From a virus, in IMG/VR virus record IMGVR_UViG_3300025073_000185, positions 1-20,731 of that record: a stretch of 20,731 nt of DNA. One strand, written 5' to 3'. How positions within the stretch are numbered: position 1 is the stretch's first letter; each line of letters starts with the position of its first letter. Below, piece after piece: positions 63-16,181 of the stretch. The position numbers and the translations under genes are program-made. The notes beneath the pieces are model-generated. The model saw nothing but the letters and a program-made list of their open reading frames with translations, did no database searches and had not been told where the DNA came from.

Positions 63-2411
63 ATGAGCAAAACAAAAGCAGTTTCCTTAGAGCGTTATTT
101 AGATGGTCCTGGCATAGATTATGTAGGTAACTATAAAATCTGGACTAACAAGTCTGAGTGGAAGATTGTTGGAAAGGTTAAAGGTAGAATCCAGCAAATG
201 TATAATGCCAGACAGGGTTCTTGTAATTTAATTAATTATGATGGGTCCAAGAGTTGGGATTCCCACTGGAATCTATTAGAAAAAGACTACTTAATGTGGT
301 CTGATTTTGATGGTAATGATGACTGGGAGAGTAGCCTCAGGTCTAGTATAGCTTATAGGACTGTAGCATTTATAGATGCTAGAGAAAGAAAGCAAGAGAT
401 TAAGTTCTTAATAGAAGCTAGGCACGAAGAGGATGAAAGGAAAGGTAGGGCTTACACGTACAGATATATGTTAGATGATTATCTAAGAAGAAACCCTGAT
501 ATCAGGTATAAGTTCTTAGACACATCGAAGAGAGCTAAAATATTTGGTACATCAATTGCTTACATACCTTATACAATAAGAACAAGGGCAGTACAATTCC
601 CTAAGGACATGGATATAAAGAAAGAGGACTTAGAGAAGGGAGAGATTCCAGCCCAAGAGTATGAGAAGAAAACTATTGTTGAATATGAGGACATGGACTT
701 TGTTCCATGGGATATAAGAGATTTTTATATAGACCCTAATGCACAGTACCTACACGGTACTAGCCATGCAGCAACTGATGCCGCTGGTATAATGTATGTA
801 ACACCAGCACAGGTAAAGCTTATGTTCCAGGGTAATGGAGAAATTAAAAATCTGGAGAAGATTGATAATGTAAGTAATACAGAATCATATGCTTCACCAT
901 TTTTCAAACCACCTAGAGACGCAGAGAAGGGTTATGGGGAGCTTATATACTACTATAACGTAGAGACAGACTCAGAAGTTATAATCTACGAGGACGTATT
1001 ACTTAAGGATGGACCAATTCCTTATATAGATAAGCAAATTCCATTTGTATCCTTTCATTTTATAAGACATCCGGGTAGTTTTTATGGATTAGGGGTAGGA
1101 GATATTACAATACAGCAGTCTTCTGAGGAGAGTGCTATTAAAAATGCAAGATTAAACAGAATAAAGTTTGCTACTAACCCCCCAACATTTGTTGGTGCTA
1201 CAATCTTTGGTGATGTAGACGACCAGTGGGATAGAATGGAGCCTAACATGCTTATTAAAGTAGGTGATGTTAACCAAATAAGACCGTTAGAAATTCCTAG
1301 TATACCTTTTGATTCCTTTAGAATAAGTGAAGAGCTTAAGGACGAGGCGGTAATGAACACAGGTATTAATCCACAGGGATTAAGTCTACCTATGAGTTCT
1401 ACACCTGCTACAAACACACTAGCCATGAAGGAGAATGCTTCTGATATGGTAAACATGTACACTGACAACCTTATGGCTGGTATGACCACATGGGGTAAAT
1501 TACTTTTAAGTAGAATAACACAGTTTTATAGCAAACCAACTAAGAAGTCTTCATTAGAGTTTGGTAAGAAGGAAATGAGAGAGTTGAGGCTAGAAGATAT
1601 AGACCTTTACCAGGATATGGATGATAACTATAAGGTAAGGGAGATAAAGGGTTCTAAGATAATGCCTCTTGATAAGCAGATGTTTGAATGGAAGGGTGAG
1701 GCAAGAGTTTATATAAGCCCAGACTTTGTTTCTCCTATATCATCAGCATTCAAGATGAGAAAAGCAGAGGAGGTACTACCACAGTTAGTACAATTAGCAG
1801 GAGATAGGGCTACACCAAAGCCAGATGGTACATTACCAGTAATAGATATAAGAAAACTAACAAAGTGGTACCTAAAGGAAATGGAAATGGATGATGAGGA
1901 CCTCTTAATAGACGATGATGAGGATAAGATAGAGGAGATACAGCAGGCTATGGAACAGCAGAAGAAAATGCAAGATGGAGATGATGTACCAGGTAGAGCA
2001 GGAGAACCATTAGCACATAGGTATACACACTCTGTAGAGCTAAGGAGATTAAACGATACTATGTCCTCCGAGGAGTTTAAGATTATGATGGAAGGTGTAG
2101 ACCCACAGATGGGGGCCTTTGCAGAAGCTATGGAGAGCTATAGACTACAGTTAGCAGACCACTTGAGATTAGATGGATTACTTGCCGAACAAGCAGGAGA
2201 AGCTGCAGTAGCAGACGCAGACGCAATAACACAGAGTATGCAACAGCCTATGGGAGCACCTATGGGAATGCCTATGAATAACCAGCCACAGATTCCACAG
2301 ATGCCGGGAGCAGCAGGATTACCAAACCCTATGGGTGGGGTGATGCCAATGCCTAATAATATGGGTCAAGAAGATATGACTGGCCAAATGGCTGGTGGTA
2401 TGATGATGTAA
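63..2411 (+). CDS. Phage portal protein
   Basis: This 782-residue protein is the likely portal, the dodecameric ring at one capsid vertex through which DNA is packaged and ejected and to which the tail attaches. The overall pattern is portal-like: an N-terminal alpha/beta region with many aromatic and charged residues, a central stretch with 'PYTIRTRAV' and 'DFVPWDIRDFYIDP', a helical stem-like region, and a long acidic, glutamine-rich helical C-terminus from about residue 600. The last 60 or so residues are a Met/Gly/Pro/Gln tail ending in GGMMM, probably disordered. The length is at the large end for portals, closer to podoviral ones such as P22 (about 725 residues) than to siphoviral ones. 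It lies directly upstream of scaffold and capsid genes, the normal order; terminase would be expected just upstream of the window. It has its own promoter and a Shine-Dalgarno-free AT leader. Confidence 0.85.
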   Translation: MSKTKAVSLERYLDGPGIDYVGNYKIWTNKSEWKIVGKVKGRIQQMYNARQGSCNLINYDGSKSWDSHWNLLEKDYLMWSDFDGNDDWESSLRSSIAYRTVAFIDARERKQEIKFLIEARHEEDERKGRAYTYRYMLDDYLRRNPDIRYKFLDTSKRAKIFGTSIAYIPYTIRTRAVQFPKDMDIKKEDLEKGEIPAQEYEKKTIVEYEDMDFVPWDIRDFYIDPNAQYLHGTSHAATDAAGIMYVTPAQVKLMFQGNGEIKNLEKIDNVSNTESYASPFFKPPRDAEKGYGELIYYYNVETDSEVIIYEDVLLKDGPIPYIDKQIPFVSFHFIRHPGSFYGLGVGDITIQQSSEESAIKNARLNRIKFATNPPTFVGATIFGDVDDQWDRMEPNMLIKVGDVNQIRPLEIPSIPFDSFRISEELKDEAVMNTGINPQGLSLPMSSTPATNTLAMKENASDMVNMYTDNLMAGMTTWGKLLLSRITQFYSKPTKKSSLEFGKKEMRELRLEDIDLYQDMDDNYKVREIKGSKIMPLDKQMFEWKGEARVYISPDFVSPISSAFKMRKAEEVLPQLVQLAGDRATPKPDGTLPVIDIRKLTKWYLKEMEMDDEDLLIDDDEDKIEEIQQAMEQQKKMQDGDDVPGRAGEPLAHRYTHSVELRRLNDTMSSEEFKIMMEGVDPQMGAFAEAMESYRLQLADHLRLDGLLAEQAGEAAVADADAITQSMQQPMGAPMGMPMNNQPQIPQMPGAAGLPNPMGGVMPMPNNMGQEDMTGQMAGGMMM

Positions 2412-2428
2412 ATTTTTAATAACCAGTA

Positions 2429-2683
2429 ATGGATAAATATACTAAAGAGGAAATAAGGGACAATAGAAGAAAGGTGGCCGCAGTAGCAGAGATGGAGGGG
2501 TGGCAGTTTATTAAAGAGATGGTTCACACCTTTGTATTAGAGACAGAAAGGGAGATAATGATAGCTCCAGCAGAAGATAGAGATAAGATGCTAGCACTAG
2601 CAAACAAGCTCAAATTTGGTACGGGCTCTATCTTATGGATGATACAAGAGGTAGAGAAAATAAGAGATGGGCTTGACAAATAA
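2429..2683 (+). CDS. Small helical protein between portal and scaffold genes
   Basis: I do not recognise this 84-residue protein. It is rich in Lys, Glu, Arg, Met and Ile and reads as two or three amphipathic helices without signal peptide or membrane segment. It starts 17 nt after the portal stop with no Shine-Dalgarno, so it is probably read from the portal transcript. Its last codons (Leu-Asp-Lys-stop) overlap the -35 TTGACA of the next promoter at 2673, so coding and regulatory sequence are superimposed. Position suggests a virion or head-assembly role, but nothing in the sequence shows which. Confidence 0.7.
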   Translation: MDKYTKEEIRDNRRKVAAVAEMEGWQFIKEMVHTFVLETEREIMIAPAEDRDKMLALANKLKFGTGSILWMIQEVEKIRDGLDK

Positions 2684-2702
2684 CATAGACTTATAGTATA
2701 AT
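2673..2702 (+). promoter_or_regulatory. Sigma70-type promoter of the scaffold/capsid genes
   Basis: TTGACA at 2673-2678 and a perfect TATAAT at 2697-2702 are separated by 18 bp. The -35 lies inside the 3' end of the preceding gene. The start point would be near 2709, giving a leader of about 85 nt, far longer than at the other four promoters in the window. Confidence 0.85.
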
Positions 2703-2708
2703 AACTAT

Positions 2709-2793
2709 AGTAACCATAAAAGTTCTTGAGACTAGTTCTCGAGGCTAGGCAATAAGAGCCTTTATGGCTAGATAAATTCTTTAACAACATAGC
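2709..2793 (+). promoter_or_regulatory. Structured 5' leader with a three-way-junction-like fold and a 13-nt tandem repeat
   Basis: CCATAAA at 2714-2720 pairs perfectly with TTTATGG at 2761-2767. Inside this closing stem, CTTGAGA (2725-2731) pairs with TCTCGAG (2737-2743, one G-U) around a CTAGT loop, and AGGC (2747-2750) can pair with GCCT (2758-2761), competing for one base of the outer stem. The same DNA contains a tandem 13-mer, AGTTCTTGAGACT (2721-2733) and AGTTCTCGAGGCT (2734-2746), differing at two positions. It sits between the strong promoter and the scaffold gene, so it could be a cis-acting RNA, a ligand-binding leader or a repeat operator. It matches no riboswitch family I know. 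Confidence 0.5.
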
Positions 2794-3672
2794 ATGGCAG
2801 AAGTAGATTTTCAGGAGAAGAGCCCTGTCGACGAGACAGTAACCTCATCCTCCGCTACAGAGTCTTCCTCCACTCCTGAGGGTGGTAACGAAGATAGTCC
2901 TAATTTAACTCAGGATGACAGCGTCGACTGGAAGAAAAGGTATAGCGACAGTTCTAAGGAAGCCGCTCGAATCAAGGAAGAGGCCGAGACATATAGACGA
3001 CAGGCAGAGGATGCACAGTCTAAACTTCTCAACCGAATAACCAAGACTAGAGAGGATTACGAAGAGTTCGTTAACGAGCAGGGACTCTCCCCTCAAGAGA
3101 AGGAGTACTATATGAATATCTATGATACGAAGATAGCACCATCCAAACTCACGAGTAAGGTAACAGAGAAACCCGCCGGTACGCCACCTCCATCAGATGG
3201 TCTAGTTCCACAGCAAGTGGACCCAATTAGACAATCATGGATGAACAGGTTGGACTCTCAAGAGAGAGATAAATGGGAGATGCAGGTAAGTGCAACGAGA
3301 GACTTTTTCAGTAGAGAGGAGAATCAAAAACTCCCCAATACAGTACAAGAATCTATAAGGGCAACAGCAGCAATGCTTGACCAGGAGTTTGGATACAAAC
3401 CACAAGAGGCCCTAGAAGTTGCAAGGAAGAGGATTTTGGACCCTGAGGCAATCAGAGATGAGGGCTACACAGAGGGAGTCCGGGATTCTATGACGGGAGG
3501 AATAACCCGAGGATTTAGTGGTGGTAGTGCGAAGTCTGAAGAGACAATAAAACTACCCGCTAGAGATGAGGCATTCATTCAGTCAGAAGTCCAAAGAAAA
3601 GGACTCAAGGGTGAAGCAGTCAATGAACTCAGGAGGAAATACGCCGAGAGATTGGCACAAAAAAATAGATAA
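2794..3672 (+). CDS. Capsid scaffold protein
   Basis: This 292-residue protein is highly charged and low in aromatic residues. The first 45 residues are Ser/Thr/Glu-rich and likely disordered. Residues about 46-115 are strongly helical and coiled-coil-like, including 'EAARIKEEAETYRRQAEDAQ'. The C-terminus is basic ('ELRRKYAERLAQKNR'). This profile and the position between portal and capsid genes are typical of an internal scaffold, which guides procapsid assembly and leaves before DNA packaging; its basic C-terminus would contact the capsid protein. I see no protease active-site motif. Codon use differs slightly from neighbours, with more TCC, CTC and CGA codons. It is the first gene after the promoter at 2673. 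Confidence 0.75.
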   Translation: MAEVDFQEKSPVDETVTSSSATESSSTPEGGNEDSPNLTQDDSVDWKKRYSDSSKEAARIKEEAETYRRQAEDAQSKLLNRITKTREDYEEFVNEQGLSPQEKEYYMNIYDTKIAPSKLTSKVTEKPAGTPPPSDGLVPQQVDPIRQSWMNRLDSQERDKWEMQVSATRDFFSREENQKLPNTVQESIRATAAMLDQEFGYKPQEALEVARKRILDPEAIRDEGYTEGVRDSMTGGITRGFSGGSAKSEETIKLPARDEAFIQSEVQRKGLKGEAVNELRRKYAERLAQKNR

Positions 3673-3689
3673 TTTAAAACATTTGTATA

Positions 3690-4226
3690 ATGAAAATTAT
3701 AAAATATGCAGATGGTGCATCAAGTAGACCACTAGAGAGATGGCCAGTAATTAACAGCGGAGTCGTATATAACGGCGGAACTGTTAAGGTCGTTGCTACA
3801 GGGGTAGACGGAGCAGACGCAGTATCAGACCCTATCTACGGAATATGTAGAGGATGGGTAATGGGGTCAGGAATGACACCTTTAGAGAACGCTCTAGATA
3901 CAGCACATGACGGTACATTAGTAGATGGTGTTTCATTCACCGCAGCTAGTGATAACGTAACTGTTGAAACCGTTTATGCATTAGTAGAACCAATTCTACC
4001 TAATGACATAATAAGAGCAGAAGCAGATGCAACATTGGGAACCACAACTGGTTCCGATTTAGTAGGTTATTACATTGATGTATTAACCACAGACGAGAGA
4101 AAACTTGATGAGAGTAACACTTCAGCAAGCCAGCTACAGTTCTTAATTGTAGGTCAACCTGGTAAGGGTAACTTTGTAGACGTTAAATTGGTAGAAAACC
4201 AGAGTAACGGAAACGTAGGAGCTTAA
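3690..4226 (+). CDS. Head decoration-like protein
   Basis: The 178-residue protein is beta-rich, Gly/Val/Thr/Asp-rich and almost free of Cys. Features such as 'GVVYNGGTVKV', 'DPIYGICRGWVMG' and 'YALVEPILPNDIIRAEAD' look like a small virion beta-sandwich. The slot between scaffold and major capsid protein is a common place for capsid decoration or stabilisation proteins, and this is my preferred reading. There is no signal peptide, so it is not a secreted protein. It starts 17 nt after the scaffold stop with an AT-rich spacer and no Shine-Dalgarno, so it is read from the same transcript. The exact family is not recognised. Confidence 0.6.
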   Translation: MKIIKYADGASSRPLERWPVINSGVVYNGGTVKVVATGVDGADAVSDPIYGICRGWVMGSGMTPLENALDTAHDGTLVDGVSFTAASDNVTVETVYALVEPILPNDIIRAEADATLGTTTGSDLVGYYIDVLTTDERKLDESNTSASQLQFLIVGQPGKGNFVDVKLVENQSNGNVGA

Positions 4227-4252
4227 TAATTAATTTTGATTTTTAGATAGCA

Positions 4253-5254
4253 ATGGCTATGATAACAAGTACATACCCAGAACTAACAGTATGCGGAGTT
4301 GAAAACTGGATTCAAGAGGAAGCAGACAACGTAATGGTAAAAACATTACTCAGTAAGCTTTTCTCTGTAGAAACCACAAACAAACTCTTCGAGGACGACT
4401 CAAGTTGGTCTGGCATTGACTATCCTGAACTAGTAGGTGAATCAGCAGCATCTCCTGAAGATGAACTCTTAATCGGGTACACATACAGGTATGAGCTAAA
4501 CACTTATAAGAGAAAGATGGCTATCTCTAGTTTACTTAACAAAGTAGACCAGTATAGTATCGCTCAAGCAGAGGATATGTCAAGAGAGCTTGCAAGAAAA
4601 GCAGCTCAGGGAAGGGATATAAATGCCTTCTCAATATTTAGAAATGCATTCGACAACACTGTATTATACGGTGATGGAATGCCTTTGATTTCAGTACAGC
4701 ATCCTAGAAAAGATGGTGGAACTGCACAAAGGAACACCTTCTTAGATGGTGTACAAGATGCACTTTCTTATGACGCATTGAAAGATTTAGAAGATGTAAT
4801 GTATGAGGTATTCTCTAACAAGGGTATTCCTCTTAACATCGGTCTAGAGAGTAAGCTAATATTAATGGTAACCCCTTATAACAGAGAGGAAGCATTACAA
4901 ATAGCTGAAGCAGATATGGTTCCAGGAAGCGTTGACGAATCTGTCAACTACTTCAAGGGAAGAAACATGGATGTATTGGTAAACCCATACATGTCATGGA
5001 GATTTGCTTATAACAGAGGCGAAACAGCTTCTACAGATAGAGTAACTTACGACAAGAGATACTTCTTAATTGACCCATCATTTACTGGAAGACTTTTGAA
5101 GTTCAAACAACTTCAGAACTTTGAGATAAAGGCTTGGGAAGATGAAGATACCGACGTTATGTATGCTAAGGTAGCAGACGTATATGCTTACGGAGTTTCC
5201 GGATGGCAGGGTATTGTAGGAAGTCTTGGAGACGGTTCTACACACACAGCTTAA
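4253..5254 (+). CDS. Major capsid protein, HK97-fold type
   Basis: This 333-residue protein carries the signatures of an HK97-fold capsid subunit. A helical N-terminal region includes 'ARKAAQGRDINAFSIFRNAF'; a loop segment near residues 138-150 reads 'YGDGMPLISVQHPRKDGG', as in Mu-like and related capsid proteins; a central domain has 'YDALKDLEDVMYEVF'; 'LILMVTPYNREEALQIAEAD' resembles the usual stored-value strand of the A domain; and the C-terminus has 'LLKFKQLQNFEIKAWEDEDTDVMYAKVADVYAYGVSGWQGIVG'. The length fits an HK97-type protein without an N-terminal delta domain. Assembly would rely on the separate scaffold. The gene ends with tandem stops (TAA TAG) before a structured intergenic stretch, consistent with a highly expressed message. 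Confidence 0.87.
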   Translation: MAMITSTYPELTVCGVENWIQEEADNVMVKTLLSKLFSVETTNKLFEDDSSWSGIDYPELVGESAASPEDELLIGYTYRYELNTYKRKMAISSLLNKVDQYSIAQAEDMSRELARKAAQGRDINAFSIFRNAFDNTVLYGDGMPLISVQHPRKDGGTAQRNTFLDGVQDALSYDALKDLEDVMYEVFSNKGIPLNIGLESKLILMVTPYNREEALQIAEADMVPGSVDESVNYFKGRNMDVLVNPYMSWRFAYNRGETASTDRVTYDKRYFLIDPSFTGRLLKFKQLQNFEIKAWEDEDTDVMYAKVADVYAYGVSGWQGIVGSLGDGSTHTA

Positions 5255-5257
5255 TAG

Positions 5258-5355
5258 TGTGGACTCATGGCAGGGGAGTATAACTCTGCCTCCCAACAAC
5301 TAAGTTGACCTCAGGGATAAGTGAGGGAAAATATATTAGTTAATAGATAATAAAA
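5258..5355 (+). other. Structured intergenic region after the capsid gene
   Basis: Three hairpins stand back to back. GGCAG (5269-5273) pairs with CTGCC (5286-5290), and AGT/ACT can extend it internally. CAACT (5297-5301) faces AGTTG (5303-5307), a very tight palindrome. CCTCA (5309-5313) pairs with TGAGG (5322-5326). The sequence then becomes AT-only up to the next ATG. No clear T-run follows any stem, so this is not a textbook intrinsic terminator. It could stabilise the 3' end of the capsid message or attenuate read-through. Confidence 0.45.
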
Positions 5356-5811
5356 ATGTCAAACAGATTTCATACAGCACAGACCATTACAGCGGGAGGT
5401 TTCACTGGAAACTTAACAGGTAATGTAACTGGAAATGTAACTGGAAACATAACTGGTAATATAACTGGGTATGTAACCAAGGTAGCTGGAGCAGTAACCA
5501 CAAACACTACGGGTGTAGCCATGCCAGCTAATACAGACTTTGTAACAATCACATCAGCAGGAGCAAACAATATTGCTATCTTACCAGCACCAGTTGTTGG
5601 TAAAGTAGTAAGAGGAGCTATTGCAGGAACAGGTTGTGAAATAAGAAGTTCTGCACCATCATCTATAGCCCTCAACGGGACTACAGGTGCGGCAGTAGAG
5701 TGTGCATTGGCAGCAAATGCTTCATTTGAGGCAACTTGCAAGTCAGCAACACAATGGATTTTACTCAACTTCAGTTCAACTGGAGAAGTAACAAGTCCAC
5801 CAGCAGATTAA
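5356..5811 (+). CDS. Small fibre/decoration protein with GNxT tetrapeptide repeats
   Basis: The 151-residue protein opens with a conserved-looking N-terminus, followed at residues 18-41 by six tandem tetrapeptides of the form G-N/Y-x-T (GNLT, GNVT, GNVT, GNIT, GNIT, GYVT). Such short-period repeats usually form a beta-structured trimeric shaft. The remainder is an Ala/Thr/Val-rich globular beta domain with 'NNIAILPAPVVGKVV', a type seen in phage head fibres and tail-fibre ends. Directly behind the capsid gene, it is best read as a head fibre or decoration protein. Five units match N-x-T sequons, though use as a glycosylation site is only a possibility. It has tandem stops (TAA TAG) and no Shine-Dalgarno. 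Confidence 0.6.
   Translation: MSNRFHTAQTITAGGFTGNLTGNVTGNVTGNITGNITGYVTKVAGAVTTNTTGVAMPANTDFVTITSAGANNIAILPAPVVGKVVRGAIAGTGCEIRSSAPSSIALNGTTGAAVECALAANASFEATCKSATQWILLNFSSTGEVTSPPAD
5407..5478 (+). repeat. Six 12-bp tandem units encoding GNxT
   Basis: The 12-bp unit is close to GGWAATGTAACT and repeats six times with mainly third-position and Val/Ile/Leu changes. It encodes the fibre-shaft segment of the protein at 5356-5811. Confidence 0.8.
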
Positions 5812-5821
5812 TAGTTAATGG

Positions 5822-5839
5822 ACAGCCCTACGGGGCTGT
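5822..5839 (+). terminator. Stable UACG-tetraloop hairpin, possible terminator
   Basis: ACAGCCC (5822-5828) and GGGCTGT (5833-5839) form a perfect 7-bp GC-rich stem closed by TACG, which gives the exceptionally stable C(UACG)G tetraloop. The following GATTAGTTATTAATATTT is only moderately T-rich, so termination would be partial. It stands 10 nt after the stop of the fibre gene and about 37 nt before the next ATG. A role in protecting the mRNA 3' end is an equal alternative. Confidence 0.5.
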
Positions 5840-5876
5840 GATTAGTTATTAATATTTAATATAATAATATAATTAA

Positions 5877-6242
5877 ATGGAGAGAAGAAGAATTATACCT
5901 TTGTTTGAAAGCCAGACAGCTGATAAGACAAGTGGTGCAGTAAGTATTCTTGGTGCAAAGAAAGTAGTATTGGTCTGTAAGAGGGCAAGCCACACTAGTG
6001 GAAATACTGTATTCTCAGCAACTGTAGGGGTAGGTGCAGACTTAACCACATATAATAAGTGGATAAGTAATGTGACCAACACAAATGCTCAAATGCCAAC
6101 AAGGGTAGCAAGCTTAACCTTAAGTGCAGACGGAGTAGGTTTTCTAACAATGAGCTCAGAGGATACCTTTGATACTATAAAGGTAACAGCAGACGTATCA
6201 ACGGACGGTTCAAACAGTGCGTGGTTAATATTAGACTACTAA
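5877..6242 (+). CDS. Unrecognised beta-rich virion protein
   Basis: The 121-residue protein has a short basic N-terminus (MERRR), then alternating hydrophobic and Thr/Ser strands, and ends in 'VSTDGSNSAWLILDY'. Segments such as 'KKVVLVCKRA' and 'SLTLSADGVGFLTM' suggest a compact beta-sandwich like small virion-surface or fibre-attachment proteins. I cannot assign a family. The neighbourhood between a fibre-like protein and the collagen fibres supports a structural role. Its upstream spacer is a long A/T run with several TATAAT-like strings but no -35, so I do not call a promoter. Confidence 0.6.
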   Translation: MERRRIIPLFESQTADKTSGAVSILGAKKVVLVCKRASHTSGNTVFSATVGVGADLTTYNKWISNVTNTNAQMPTRVASLTLSADGVGFLTMSSEDTFDTIKVTADVSTDGSNSAWLILDY

Positions 6243-6246
6243 GAGC

Positions 6247-6528
6247 ATGTTTAACAGGAGAGATATAACTACTACCAGCTCCTGGAGTGATACAGATATA
6301 GGGGCTACTGCCTCTGCTTTTGAAAGAGTGGATGCAGATACCTCTACATTTGGTGACTCAGATATAACAACTACAAGTGGGAACCCCTTCTATTTAGTAG
6401 AAGAGGGAACGGATGATAAGATACTTACAGAGGATTTATATCAAATTCTCCTTGGGTATTTAGGTAACTGGAAAGAGATAAACACAAAAATTTCAACATG
6501 GGTTAGACGTAACTTTACCGAATCTTAA
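6247..6528 (+). CDS. Small unrecognised virion-module protein
   Basis: I do not recognise this 93-residue protein. The first 50 residues are Thr/Ser/Asp-rich ('[20 protein letters not shown]') and likely extended. The last 40 are helical with two Trp and end in 'WVRRNFTES'. It starts 4 nt after the previous stop and ends 2 nt before the next ATG, so translation is probably coupled. It may be a joint or chaperone for the neighbouring fibre, but nothing in the sequence proves this. Confidence 0.6.
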
Positions 6529-6530
6529 GA

Positions 6531-10470
<3,940 letters not shown>

Positions 10471-10495: not shown

Positions 10496-10750
10496 ATGGA
10501 GTATACATACCTTACAACAGAAGAGCAGAATGCTATTAAGGCAGAATACATAAAAGGGATAGAGGAGTCTCACCTTAGAGACAGTCTTTATGTTAAAGAA
10601 ATTGACGGGAAAATAGCTGTCGAAAGTGCAGATGAAGAGAAGACTACCTACTATCAGAGAATAAAAGATGAAACCTTGCAGAGGATAGCTCAGCAAGAGG
10701 AATCTATAATTTCACTCACAAAAGAGAGTGTCACAGAAATACAAAAATAA
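10496..10750 (+). CDS. Small charged helical protein after the large fibre
   Basis: I cannot assign this 84-residue protein. It is acidic and strongly helical, with many Glu, Lys and Gln residues, and no membrane segment. The start 'MEYTYLTTEEQNAIKAEYI' resembles short coiled-coil proteins that accompany tail fibres, so a fibre-assembly chaperone is possible but unproven. Its 3' end overlaps the next gene by 23 nt in another frame, so the two are probably coupled. Confidence 0.6.
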   Translation: MEYTYLTTEEQNAIKAEYIKGIEESHLRDSLYVKEIDGKIAVESADEEKTTYYQRIKDETLQRIAQQEESIISLTKESVTEIQK

Positions 10751-11420
10751 AACAATCTTAGTGGGTATGCCCTCTTATAGTGGGTTTATACCTAGTGCTA
10801 CAGTGCAGAGCTTATTACAATTACACAAGCCCTTACCCTGTGCTTTTATGGTAGTCGAGAGACAGAGGATAGACAAGGCTAGAAATAATATTGCTTTAGA
10901 GGCTCTTAAGAATGGGGTTGATTATGTTTTCTTTGTTGATGACGATAATCCAATACCACCAGATACACTTGAAAAGTTTATAGAGGATGATAAGGACATT
11001 GTAATTGCTCCTATACTAGGGAGAAATCCTGATAAGAATGGGGTTCATCCTTTGTGTGCTTTTTATAAAAGAGAGGTGAAGGCAGATGGTAAGAAGATAA
11101 ATCTTTATGAGAATATAGAGAAGTTTAAGGAAGACGATTATTTGCATAGGATTGATGCAGCAGGAACAGGTTGTATGCTTGTTAAGAGAAAGGTTTTAGA
11201 GAAACTTTTTGCTAAGTATGGAGAGTATATCTTTGAGTTTGGAGATATAAAATTTAAAAAGAAGGTGGTAGTTAAGGGGAAAGAGTATGACAGGAGGACT
11301 ATGAGTGAGGATTGTGAGTTTAGTGAAAGGGCTGTTAAAGAAGGATTTGAGATTTGGCTAGACGATAGGGTAAGACCTTTCCATATTACAACATATAATT
11401 TAATTCAGTATAAAGACTAA
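10728..11420 (+). CDS. GT-A-type glycosyltransferase-like protein
   Basis: The 230-residue protein looks like a compact nucleotide-sugar transferase. It has a first strand 'ILVGMPSYSG', an 'RIDKARNNIALEAL' helix, then 'YVFFVDDDNPIPPD', where D71-D73 fit the metal-binding DxD motif. Near the end 'MSEDCEFSERAVKEGFEIW' (S193-E194-D195) and H219 occupy places where GT-A enzymes carry the catalytic acid and a late metal-binding His. The start is GTG, chosen because it retains the first strand; an ATG 40 nt downstream would delete part of that strand. It overlaps the upstream gene by 23 nt, and its TAA shares one base with the next ATG. Placed among fibre genes, it may modify virion proteins or host-like glycans. 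Donor and acceptor are unknown. Confidence 0.7.
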   Translation: MSQKYKNKTILVGMPSYSGFIPSATVQSLLQLHKPLPCAFMVVERQRIDKARNNIALEALKNGVDYVFFVDDDNPIPPDTLEKFIEDDKDIVIAPILGRNPDKNGVHPLCAFYKREVKADGKKINLYENIEKFKEDDYLHRIDAAGTGCMLVKRKVLEKLFAKYGEYIFEFGDIKFKKKVVVKGKEYDRRTMSEDCEFSERAVKEGFEIWLDDRVRPFHITTYNLIQYKD

Positions 11421-12670
11421 TGGCTGACTGGGCAGTAACAACAGCAAATGCTAGTCTAGAGTTTGATACAGCATACGGTTTTTATAATTCATGTTATCAA
11501 ATAGACAGTAATCACTTTATAAACTTCTGGGCTGGAGACGGTTTGGATGGTTATGTACAAGTATTTGCAGTGAACACTTCTACTTGGGGAGTAACAACAG
11601 CAAATGCTAGACTAGAGTTTGATACAGCATACGGTGCAGACAACTCTTGTTACCAGGTAGATGGTAATCATTTTATTAACTTCTGGAGGCAAGAGTTTAG
11701 CAAGGGTTTTGTGCAAGTATTTACAGTTAGTACAAGTACTTGGGCAGTAACAACAGCTAATGCTAGCTTAGAGTTTGAGGCGAATAAGGGCCTTTATAAT
11801 TCGTGTTATCAAATAGACAGTAATCACTTTATAAACTTCTGGCAGGGAACGGGGGATTTGGATGGTTATGTACAAGTATTTGCAGTGAACACTTCTACTT
11901 GGGGAGTAACAACAGCAAATGCTAGTCTAGAGTTTGATACGGTAGATAACTCTTATAATTCGTGTTACCAAATAGACAGTAATCACTTTATAAACTTCTG
12001 GGCTGGAAGTAGTACAGATGGTTATGTACAAGTATTTACAGTTAGTACAAGTACTTGGGCAGTAACAACAGCAAATGCTAGTCTAGAGTTTGATATAGTT
12101 AATGGCACACACAACTCGTGTTATCAAATAGACAGTAATCATTTTATTAACTTCTGCAGTGGAGACGGTTTTGACGGTTTTGTACAGGTATTCACGGTCA
12201 ATACGAGCACCTGGGCAGTAACAACAGCAAATGCTAGTCTAGAGTTTGATACTGACATAGGATGGTACAATTCTTGCTATCAGGTAGACAGTAATCACTT
12301 TATAAACTTCTGGAGAGGAACAGGAGATGATGGTTATGTACAAGTATTTGCAGTGAACACTTCTACTTGGGCAGTAACAACAGCAAATGCTAGTCTAGAG
12401 TTTGATACGATAGGTAGTAATTACAATTCGTGTTACCAAATAGACAGTAATCACTTTATAAACTTCTACTGTGGAGTAAGTTCTGATGGTTTTGTACAGG
12501 TCTTTGCAGTAGAAGTACCTGCTGGAGCTACAGGGACTGACATGAAGTTGAACGTGGGTGATTCGTGGAAAACTGTAACAGCAGTAAAAGTTAATGTGGG
12601 AGATTCGTGGAAGCCAGTTACAAAGGTACAGGTGAATGTAGGGGACACGTGGAAGGAAGTATTTAGTTGA
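11420..12670 (+). CDS. Seven-repeat beta-propeller-like receptor-binding protein
   Basis: The 416-residue protein has seven consecutive 52-53-residue repeats (residues 7 to about 370). Each contains 'TTANASLEFD', 'NSCYQIDSNHFINF' and 'GYVQVFAVNTSTW' with little change. Seven blades of about 50 residues fit a seven-bladed beta-propeller. Variation is confined to two short loops per repeat, after 'EFD' and after 'INF', as expected for a binding surface. The C-terminus (375-416) has three 14-residue repeats of 'VNVGDSWKxVT', a motif seen at phage tail tips. I infer a host-binding virion protein with no signal peptide. The start codon overlaps the previous stop (TAATG). It uses the window's only TGA stop, followed in frame by TAG. 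Confidence 0.7.
   Translation: MADWAVTTANASLEFDTAYGFYNSCYQIDSNHFINFWAGDGLDGYVQVFAVNTSTWGVTTANARLEFDTAYGADNSCYQVDGNHFINFWRQEFSKGFVQVFTVSTSTWAVTTANASLEFEANKGLYNSCYQIDSNHFINFWQGTGDLDGYVQVFAVNTSTWGVTTANASLEFDTVDNSYNSCYQIDSNHFINFWAGSSTDGYVQVFTVSTSTWAVTTANASLEFDIVNGTHNSCYQIDSNHFINFCSGDGFDGFVQVFTVNTSTWAVTTANASLEFDTDIGWYNSCYQVDSNHFINFWRGTGDDGYVQVFAVNTSTWAVTTANASLEFDTIGSNYNSCYQIDSNHFINFYCGVSSDGFVQVFAVEVPAGATGTDMKLNVGDSWKTVTAVKVNVGDSWKPVTKVQVNVGDTWKEVFS
11438..12515 (+). repeat. Seven tandem 156-159-bp repeats
   Basis: Units begin with ACAACAGCAAATGCTAG and share long identical nucleotide stretches such as CAAATAGACAGTAATCACTT. Divergence is concentrated in two loop segments per unit. Homogeneity including silent sites points to recent amplification or gene conversion. 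Confidence 0.85.
12542..12667 (+). repeat. Three 42-bp repeats encoding VNVGDSWKxVT
   Basis: Three in-frame copies of a 14-codon unit at the gene's 3' end share GTGGGTGATTCGTGGAA-like cores. They encode a C-terminal tag probably used for anchoring or trimerisation. Confidence 0.75.
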
Positions 12671-13981: not shown

Positions 13982-14890
13982 ATGAAGATATCAGTAGCAA
14001 TGATTGTAAAGAACGAGGAGGAGATGCTACCTCGTGCGTTAGAGTCTGTAAAGGGAGCCGACGAGATAGTAGTGTGTGATACAGGTAGCGAGGACAGCAC
14101 TATAGAGGTTGCCAAGAAATTTACGGATAAGGTGTTTACAGATTTTAAATGGGTAGACCACTTTGGTAAGGCAAGGCAGCATAGTAAAGATAAGTGTATT
14201 GGGGACTGGATAATAACCTTAGACGCAGATGAGTATTTAGAGACAGACCTTAAGGAAGTAAGGAAGATTATAAAGAAGGCAGACAAGGAAGGCCACGTGT
14301 TTGTTAATGTAATTGTAGAAGCAGAGGGCAAAGCAGGTAGTAATATATTTCCTAGAATTTATAAGAACATACCTGAGATAACCTGGAATGGTCCTGCTCA
14401 TAACTACCTTAATTACAAGGGTAGTATGGTAGGTAAGAGTTATAAGTCAGATATTAAAATAGTATATGGTTATTCACCTGCACACAAGAAGGACCCAGAG
14501 AGAACCTTAAGAATACTAAAGGCTGCAGTAGAAGAAAATGGTGAGTTAACAAGGGAGAGATACTACTTAGCAAGGGAGTATTTTTACAGAAAGAATTGGG
14601 AGAAGTGTTTAGAGCATTTAAATGAATACATACCAAGGAGTAGGTTCTTAGGGGAGAGGAACGACGCATGGATGATGAAGGCATACTGTCTAGCAGGCTT
14701 AAAGAAATATGAAGAGGCTTGTGACGCAGCATGGCAGGCTATTAAATATAACGCCAACTTTAAAGAAGCCCTTAAATTCATAGGAGACCACATGGATGCG
14801 GTCAACAAGGTAGCATGGCACAGGTATGCAGAGTCAGCTACTAACGAGAATGTATTATTTGTAAGGAATATAGGAAATGCCAACAAGTAG
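13982..14890 (+). CDS. WaaE-like family 2 glycosyltransferase with C-terminal TPR region
   Basis: The 302-residue protein is a clear GT2 enzyme of the WaaE/beta-1,4-glucosyltransferase-like type. The N-terminus 'ISVAMIVKNEEEMLPRALES', the nucleotide-binding 'CDTGSEDST' (D33, D38), 'FGKARQHSKDKCIGDWIITLDADEYLE' with D81-x-D83-E84, and 'WNGPAHNY' (W135, H140) are all present in order. Residues about 193-275 are helical TPR-like repeats, often used to bind protein acceptors. Such enzymes transfer a sugar from a nucleotide donor in the cytoplasm. It is the first gene behind its own promoter and overlaps the next gene by 14 nt, so the two probably act together, likely on a virion or envelope glycan. 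Donor and acceptor are not readable. Confidence 0.85.
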   Translation: MKISVAMIVKNEEEMLPRALESVKGADEIVVCDTGSEDSTIEVAKKFTDKVFTDFKWVDHFGKARQHSKDKCIGDWIITLDADEYLETDLKEVRKIIKKADKEGHVFVNVIVEAEGKAGSNIFPRIYKNIPEITWNGPAHNYLNYKGSMVGKSYKSDIKIVYGYSPAHKKDPERTLRILKAAVEENGELTRERYYLAREYFYRKNWEKCLEHLNEYIPRSRFLGERNDAWMMKAYCLAGLKKYEEACDAAWQAIKYNANFKEALKFIGDHMDAVNKVAWHRYAESATNENVLFVRNIGNANK

Positions 14891-16181
14891 ACCATATCAC
14901 TTAACCTGGTTGTGTGACCAGATAATAAAGATTAGACCTAGGACTATACTAGACGTAGGTATTGGGTATGGTTCTAAGGGTATGTTGTTTAGGGAATACA
15001 CAGACGTATGGAATGGTAAGATGTTTGAACATTATACAATCATAGACGGGGTGGAAATATTCCCAGAATATATAACAGACTTACAGAGGGATATCTATGA
15101 CAACATTTATATAGGAGATATAATGGACCTAATAGATGGTATGGGTTTTTATGAACTCATATACATAGGGGATGTACTAGAGCATTTTAATAAAGAGGAG
15201 GGTAAGATACTATTAGAGAAACTTAAACAGAGGTGTAGGTATCTTATAATAGTAACACCAGTACAGGTATCTGAGCAGGGTGCTGTGTACGGTAATGAAC
15301 ACGAGACCCATAGGAGTGAGTGGGCACCCATGGACTTTCCGAACTTTGATGTACTACAAATACACAATAGTTTAATAGCCACATGGAAGAGACCCGAGGT
15401 GTACTACTGTGAGGGTATGAAGTTCTACGGTGAGAGAATGAAGAGTACCTTTGGGTTTAGAGAATACTCAGGTACTGAGGAGGAAAGACTACTCTTTATG
15501 GGATTATACTTTAAGGAGGACTATGAGGTGTATAAGAAACACACAGGCCAGAAGGTAGTGTTCTGGAATGGGTCTGATGTATCTAGGTTACTACAACACC
15601 CAGAGGGGGTTGAGATATTAAAGGAGCACCCAGGTATACACGTGTGCCACAATGAGATGTTAAGGGAGGAGCTAGCTAGTGTGGGTATCACTGCAATAGT
15701 GGAGCCAATCTTCTTTGCGTACGTGTCAGACTACAAGGAATCATTCAAGCCAGGTAAGCCATTAGAAGTTTATATAAATGCACACCCAGACAGGGAGCAG
15801 GAGTATGGTGTTACAGAGGCTGTGATGACCCTAGAAGGCATGGAAGGGGTAGAGTTGTATGTTTATGGGATTGAAGGAAATAGTAGTGGTAATATTCACT
15901 ACATGGGGTGGTTTGAAGAAGAGGATGCAGACAAGAAAATGTCACAACACCATGTGTGTTTAAGATTAAATAGACATGATGGACTTAGTCAATTGGTAAT
16001 CAAGGCTGCTTTATGGGGACACCATATAGTATCTAGAATTCCAATAGAAGGTGGGCATACTATAAAAAGCAGTGAAGACCTTAAGATAAAAGTAAAAGAA
16101 CTACAGAAAGAGAAGAAGCCTAACACAAAGACAAGAGAGTTTCTTAAGGAGTCTAACCTTAACAGATTCAGTTGGTTGTAG
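14877..16181 (+). CDS. Methyltransferase fused to a GT-B-like glycosyltransferase
   Basis: The 434-residue protein joins two enzymes. Residues 1 to about 195 are a class I SAM-dependent methyltransferase: 'TILDVGIGYGSKG' (motif I, D26-G32), an acidic E59 ending the second strand, D81, and 'YIGDVLEHF' (98-104). Residues about 205-434 resemble the GT-B fold: 'KVVFWNGSDVSRLL', 'NIHYMGWFEEEDADKKMSQ', and 'RHDGLSQLVIKAALWGHHIVSR' at about 366-387, the nucleotide-sugar-binding signature of family 4-like enzymes. It would add and methylate sugars, probably on the same glycan as the GT2 product. The start lies inside the previous gene, with a possible AAGGA 9 nt upstream. The GT half seems to lack a full N-terminal acceptor domain, so it may be degenerate. 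Confidence 0.7.
   Translation: MPTSRPYHLTWLCDQIIKIRPRTILDVGIGYGSKGMLFREYTDVWNGKMFEHYTIIDGVEIFPEYITDLQRDIYDNIYIGDIMDLIDGMGFYELIYIGDVLEHFNKEEGKILLEKLKQRCRYLIIVTPVQVSEQGAVYGNEHETHRSEWAPMDFPNFDVLQIHNSLIATWKRPEVYYCEGMKFYGERMKSTFGFREYSGTEEERLLFMGLYFKEDYEVYKKHTGQKVVFWNGSDVSRLLQHPEGVEILKEHPGIHVCHNEMLREELASVGITAIVEPIFFAYVSDYKESFKPGKPLEVYINAHPDREQEYGVTEAVMTLEGMEGVELYVYGIEGNSSGNIHYMGWFEEEDADKKMSQHHVCLRLNRHDGLSQLVIKAALWGHHIVSRIPIEGGHTIKSSEDLKIKVKELQKEKKPNTKTREFLKESNLNRFSWL

Follow-up and report, generated by a model that had tools for sequence, protein, structure and literature searches.

A phage cassette pairing a glycosyltransferase with a seven-bladed beta-propeller of constant framework and variable loops, a candidate virion-borne recognition protein

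In a viral DNA stretch of 20,731 nucleotides (the whole of IMG/VR record IMGVR_UViG_3300025073_000185, hereafter the window), positions 10728-12670 carry a two-gene cassette consisting of a glycosyltransferase and a seven-bladed beta-propeller, which on balance is best read as a virion-borne recognition protein, binding a receptor or a glycan and probably itself glycosylated. Judged from sequence, the propeller belongs to a real and apparently undescribed phage family, without cover in Pfam or PHROG. A broader proposal is put forward more tentatively, at somewhat less than even confidence, namely that the cassette represents an undescribed phage recognition module, in which a propeller with hypervariable loops would have its framework glycosylated by a dedicated enzyme, the cassette would move between unrelated phages, and the whole would be a counterpart of the fungal HET-D/E proteins. 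The features concerned are the following.

10728-11420, plus strand: GT-A-like glycosyltransferase, 230 aa, GTG start (Pfam Anp1 PF03452 2.1e-8 and Glycos_transf_2 2.3e-5, both above cut-off)
11420-12670, plus strand: seven-bladed propeller gene, 416 aa (open reading frame; AlphaFold2 pLDDT 95.2 and pTM 0.92 on residues 1-369)
11429-11584, plus strand: blade unit 1, loops 11468-11485 and 11528-11548
11585-11740, plus strand: blade unit 2, loops 11624-11641 and 11684-11704
11741-11899, plus strand: blade unit 3, loop 2 longer by one codon, loops 11780-11797 and 11840-11863
11900-12055, plus strand: blade unit 4, loops 11939-11956 and 11999-12019
12056-12211, plus strand: blade unit 5, loops 12095-12112 and 12155-12175
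12212-12367, plus strand: blade unit 6, loops 12251-12268 and 12311-12331
12368-12514, plus strand: blade unit 7, ending on strand C, loops 12407-12424 and 12467-12487
12512-12670, plus strand: C-terminal tail with three VNVGDxWK-like motifs, probably a docking tail

The seven near-identical blades that an earlier note on this DNA had described at 11420-12670 are indeed encoded there in a single reading frame, as tandem units of 52, 52, 53, 52, 52, 52, and 49 residues, each starting with W[AG]VTTA; the seventh unit is cut short, and a 52-residue tail comes after it. Columns 14-19 of the unit, which follow LEFD, and columns 34-41, which follow FINF, hold most of the variation, 39 of the 48 excess residue kinds, a concentration matched by none of 2000 shuffles of column order, and at column 18 the seven blades carry seven different residues. 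A near-constant framework interrupted by two short windows that differ in each blade, as the note had it, is therefore borne out, the first window lying after EFD as described and the second, in most blades, starting one residue past FINF, after W. The most divergent blade, correcting the note, is blade 2.

At the nucleotide level, the blades are 88% identical in the framework and 48% identical in the loops. The suggested comparison of substitution rates across repeats, calculated as pN/pS (Nei-Gojobori counts on codon-aligned blades), gave 0.16 for the framework and 0.85 for the loops, and most of the genes tested have a loop pN/pS close to 1. In the window gene, loop pN (0.50) exceeds framework pS (0.34) by 0.16, a marginal excess with a 95% interval of -0.01 to 0.33 by column bootstrap. 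These comparisons point to purifying selection on the framework, with the loops free to vary. The framework pS of 0.34 is about half of the 0.63-0.75 found within ten relatives, so the homogenisation of the framework at the DNA level, which had also been noticed earlier, applies to the window phage in particular; since low framework synonymous divergence occurs in the window gene only, among eleven genes tested, this homogenisation is recent or ongoing. In a test for recombination between blades, 35 of 55 site pairs were incompatible, yet a positional signal was absent, a mixed outcome that speaks neither for nor against gene conversion.

Structure prediction, which the earlier note had proposed as a check, yielded a closed seven-bladed propeller when AlphaFold2 was supplied with an alignment of 21 relatives over residues 1-369 (pLDDT 95.2, pTM 0.92), and this fold can be regarded as a confident prediction; the non-propeller fold that the note had named as contrary evidence was not seen in the model. 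A model built with only six relatives was poor (pLDDT 57, Foldseek TM near 0.17) and was set aside. In the accepted model, each blade comprises strands A (FYNSCYQID), B (HFINFWA), C (GYVQVFAVN), and a split D (VTT, then LEFD), so that, by this strand assignment, loop 1 links D with the strand A that follows it and loop 2 links B with C, the A-B and C-D turns being conserved. Since an antiparallel meander has its D-A and B-C connections on the same side and its A-B and C-D turns on the opposite side, the predicted propeller would display fourteen variable loops on one face and the conserved turns on the other. The chain begins with strand D and unit 7 ends on strand C, and the ring is accordingly expected to be closed by unit 1 through its N-terminal strand; closure by an N-terminal strand D and a C-terminal strand C is usual for propellers.

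Foldseek comparisons place the model at TM 0.64-0.72 to seven-bladed propellers, including the EPTP domain of LGI1, 6-phosphogluconolactonase-like proteins, and the Photorhabdus lectin PLL3 along with other PLL/PHL fucose lectins, and in a viral structure library the top match (TM 0.83) was a protein without a name. At the sequence level, none of the Pfam propeller families (WD40, Kelch, YVTN, FG-GAP, and others) scored above cut-off in the window protein and 12 family members, the window propeller matched no PHROG family over a significant stretch, and it had no sequence relative in the PDB. Weak Pfam and PHROG matches to the propeller (DUF1137 and others) were below cut-off and were dismissed.

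Sequence relatives were gathered from IMG/VR contigs, all of them metagenomic, with framework motifs as search patterns, so that the sample is biased toward conserved frameworks. With the patterns used, no cellular relatives appeared among the GTDB species genomes (two pattern sets), no propeller relatives appeared among plasmids, and the INPHARED phages yielded only the tail motif. The relatives fall into two classes: stand-alone propellers, and propellers embedded in a virion-like protein (about 860 residues), the body of which has weak matches to the virion proteins phrog_3287 and phrog_511 (E 1.8e-4 and 0.003; hhalign probability 6%, E 0.0065). The fused class forms a branch separate from the class paired with the glycosyltransferase. 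Irregular domains occur in L026 and L049, and the blade number is seven in all 21 aligned domains. The comparison of repeat number and loops among related phages that had been called for thus gives a fixed count and differing loops, and the idea that specificity is gained by copying blades is not supported; whole domains, genes, and cassettes are exchanged instead. A second family of propellers, of the DSTHFVV type, occurs in L005, and a pattern search for it gave no further relatives. In L052, positions 4299-5627 encode a lipoprotein-like protein with a DSTHFVV-type repeat propeller, which is distinct from the window family and resembles the first propeller of the L005 gene.

The propeller gene is flanked in the window by tail fibre and virion genes. 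Its C-terminal tail is matched over 42 residues by the N-terminus of the Vibrio phage protein CHOED_010, which adjoins a tail fibre gene in that phage; a similar tail is present in L015, and the propellers of other relatives carry different tails. Positions 6531-7793 and 7795-10470 of the window hold two tail fibre genes of collagen-like (G-x-y) type, one of which has a phage tail collar domain.

The gene upstream of the propeller can be assigned to predicted GT-A enzymes from its Pfam matches and its conserved DxD, the motifs DDDNP and SED..F.ERA being invariant across 13 homologues. It overlaps the propeller gene by a single base, with which its stop codon ends and the propeller ATG begins, and translation of the two genes is probably coupled. 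In a comparison of neighbourhoods, 10728-11420 was the flanking gene common to most propeller loci: the same glycosyltransferase family lies directly upstream in 16/16 stand-alone propeller contigs that have upstream sequence, and reciprocally a propeller comes next in 17 of the 18 glycosyltransferase homologues of at least 40% identity, with junctions of -16 to +1 nt. No propeller was detected behind more distant homologues, and upstream of the fused propellers a different, GT2-TPR glycosyltransferase lies directly adjacent in 4/6. The earlier interpretation, which was sound as regards the propeller, its constant framework and free loops, and the modular gene, had missed this partner. A search of largely open-access literature found no paper on a glycosyltransferase-propeller pair in phages. 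Elsewhere in the window, positions 13982-14890 encode a GT2-TPR glycosyltransferase about 40% identical to those upstream of the fused propellers in L019, L044, L045, and L049, and positions 14877-16181, in the same neighbourhood of glycan genes, a putative methyltransferase-like protein (weak Rsm22 match).

Exchange was examined in pairs of metagenomic contigs, for which chimeric assembly is a possible caveat. L016 and L017 have unrelated flanks and share the cassette alone, a stretch of 1767 bp with 98.2% identity that begins near codon 4 of the glycosyltransferase and stops where the propeller domain ends, the C-terminal tails beyond it being different; the 32 differences within the shared segment argue against a chimeric assembly. 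Loops contain 11 of the 15 amino-acid changes (binomial p 1.3e-4), loop pN (0.068) exceeds framework pS (0.044), and the shared region of the glycosyltransferase has three silent changes and no protein-altering ones. L004 and L005 agree at 99.8% over 7060 bp and at only 67% in the propeller gene, the last domain retaining 71% identity in the framework and 32% in the loops; as the divergence continues across the holin-like gene that follows, acquisition of an entire allele is indicated rather than point hypermutation. On these alignments, and with the caveat given, the cassette, the gene, or the domain has been exchanged between phages, in agreement with the earlier view of a modular, exchangeable gene. 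Identical loops on variable frameworks, which the earlier note would have taken as contrary evidence, were not seen, the loops differing more in every close pair compared. L105 and L106 have backbones related to that of the window phage and lack the cassette; in the corresponding stretch (2126-7167), L106 has a longer protein that includes the GT2 homologue, and a further glycosyltransferase-like gene. The window and a second assembly of the same phage (L002), compared over 17,248 bp, have identical propeller loops and differ only by nine changes within 13 bases (9985-9997) of a collagen-like repeat.

A mechanism consistent with these observations may be outlined as follows. The fourteen loops formed by the D-A and B-C connections, two per blade, would constitute a binding surface on one face of the propeller, which the virion would bear on its tail. 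The exchangeable C-terminal segment would anchor the propeller there, a function that in some relatives would fall to a virion protein in which the propeller is embedded. A role in receptor binding would fit the position of the gene, the fusion of some relatives with a virion-like protein, and the exchange of alleles, and the structural resemblance of the model would also be compatible with a lectin. New specificities would arise from allele and cassette exchange together with loop change, the framework being held by purifying selection. The most likely substrate of the glycosyltransferase is the propeller, because the two genes are adjacent, are probably translationally coupled, and move together, and because the enzyme is paired with very different propellers; the enzyme may glycosylate conserved Thr/Ser residues of the framework, in the N-T-S-T turn and the V-T-T strand, before assembly. 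These positions are Ser/Thr in 98% and 92% in the paired class versus 43% and 17% in the fused class, a contrast confounded by ancestry because the fused class is a separate branch. Between L006 and L014, the enzymes are 93% and the propellers 45% identical, which suggests that the enzyme reads the common framework. Overall, identities of enzyme and propeller are uncorrelated (r -0.03 without the near-identical pair L016/L017), which fits an enzyme reading a shared framework but would also fit a partner with another target. Residue-level co-evolution of the two proteins was considered and rejected, as the correlation vanishes once L016/L017 is removed.

Such another target is assumed in a less likely account, in which the glycosyltransferase alters the host surface, as phages do to convert the serotype or to exclude superinfection, and the propeller binds the unmodified glycan, the two genes being linked through the same host structure. 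Alteration of the host cell wall is commonly proposed for phage glycosyltransferases (PMC10202952), and pairing and co-transfer would fit as well; the location within a late structural block and the tight junction with the propeller gene speak against it, as does the L006/L014 pair, since a shared glycan target should tie the enzyme to the loops. Somewhat less probable still is a decoration protein with affinity for glycans, mucus, or particles but no part in determining specificity, although lectins are among the structural neighbours, the window phage also encodes a LamG-like protein besides its two collagen-like fibres, and phages with related backbones lack the cassette. Near-identical phages differing in exactly the propeller gene, as L004 and L005 do, present a pattern usual for host-range genes, which favours the recognition protein.

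That the loops are merely unconstrained, drifting on a recently amplified structural propeller with no role in recognition, appears improbable. Loop pN/pS near 1 within most genes would agree with drift, and recent amplification is common among propellers (PMC9218822), but loop pN exceeds framework pS both in L016/L017 and, marginally, in the window, and exchange of alleles and cassettes is unexpected for a neutral scaffold. Mutation of the loops by a diversity-generating retroelement, a known mechanism for phage receptor-binding proteins (PMC10743442), is very improbable and was rejected: no reverse transcriptase (RVT_1) was found in the eight records searched, including a 49 kb record of the same phage, by a search that works on a control, the loops are constant between the window and the second assembly, and by inspection the loop substitutions have no adenine-only pattern.

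A recognition propeller of this kind finds its nearest analogy in HET-D/HET-E of Podospora anserina, in which diversifying selection acts on residues of the d-a loop and the b-c turn, in WD40 blades that are themselves nearly identical (PMC1805685). Near-identical blades with diversity in the same two connections (columns 14-19 and 34-41, with strands taken from the model) and on one face, as inferred for the phage propeller, are common to both. HET-D/HET-E, however, are fungal, have WD40 sequences and variable repeat numbers, and are part of an NLR, whereas the phage propeller has no WD40 match, always seven blades in the aligned domains, and a glycosyltransferase partner. Recently amplified beta-propellers share blade identities above 60% within a propeller (PMC9218822, whose main text does not contain the word "phage"), and the window gene differs from them in its homogenised framework and highly diverse loops. 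Phage tail receptor-binding proteins with exchangeable tips resemble it in allele and domain exchange and in a separate docking tail, and differ in that the window protein is a propeller, varies in fourteen loops, and has a dedicated glycosyltransferase encoded next to it. The seven-bladed PLL/PHL fucose lectins of Photorhabdus, which have repeated binding sites, are alike in fold (TM about 0.6-0.7) at just ~11-12% sequence identity, and we know of no glycosyltransferase partner for them. To our knowledge, virion glycosylation in mycobacteriophages likewise has no propeller pairing. That mycobacteriophage virion proteins bear sugars is reported by Freeman et al. 2023, as cited in PMC10955285.

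If the proposed reading is true, phages would recognise their targets through fourteen variable loops set on a ready-made ring, free of retroelements and equipped with a private sugar-attaching enzyme. The cassette would then provide a simple, testable system for virion glycosylation, its relatives would offer many natural loop sets built on a single scaffold, and the fact that fungal self-recognition and phages diversify the same pair of propeller loops would point to convergent use of the fold.
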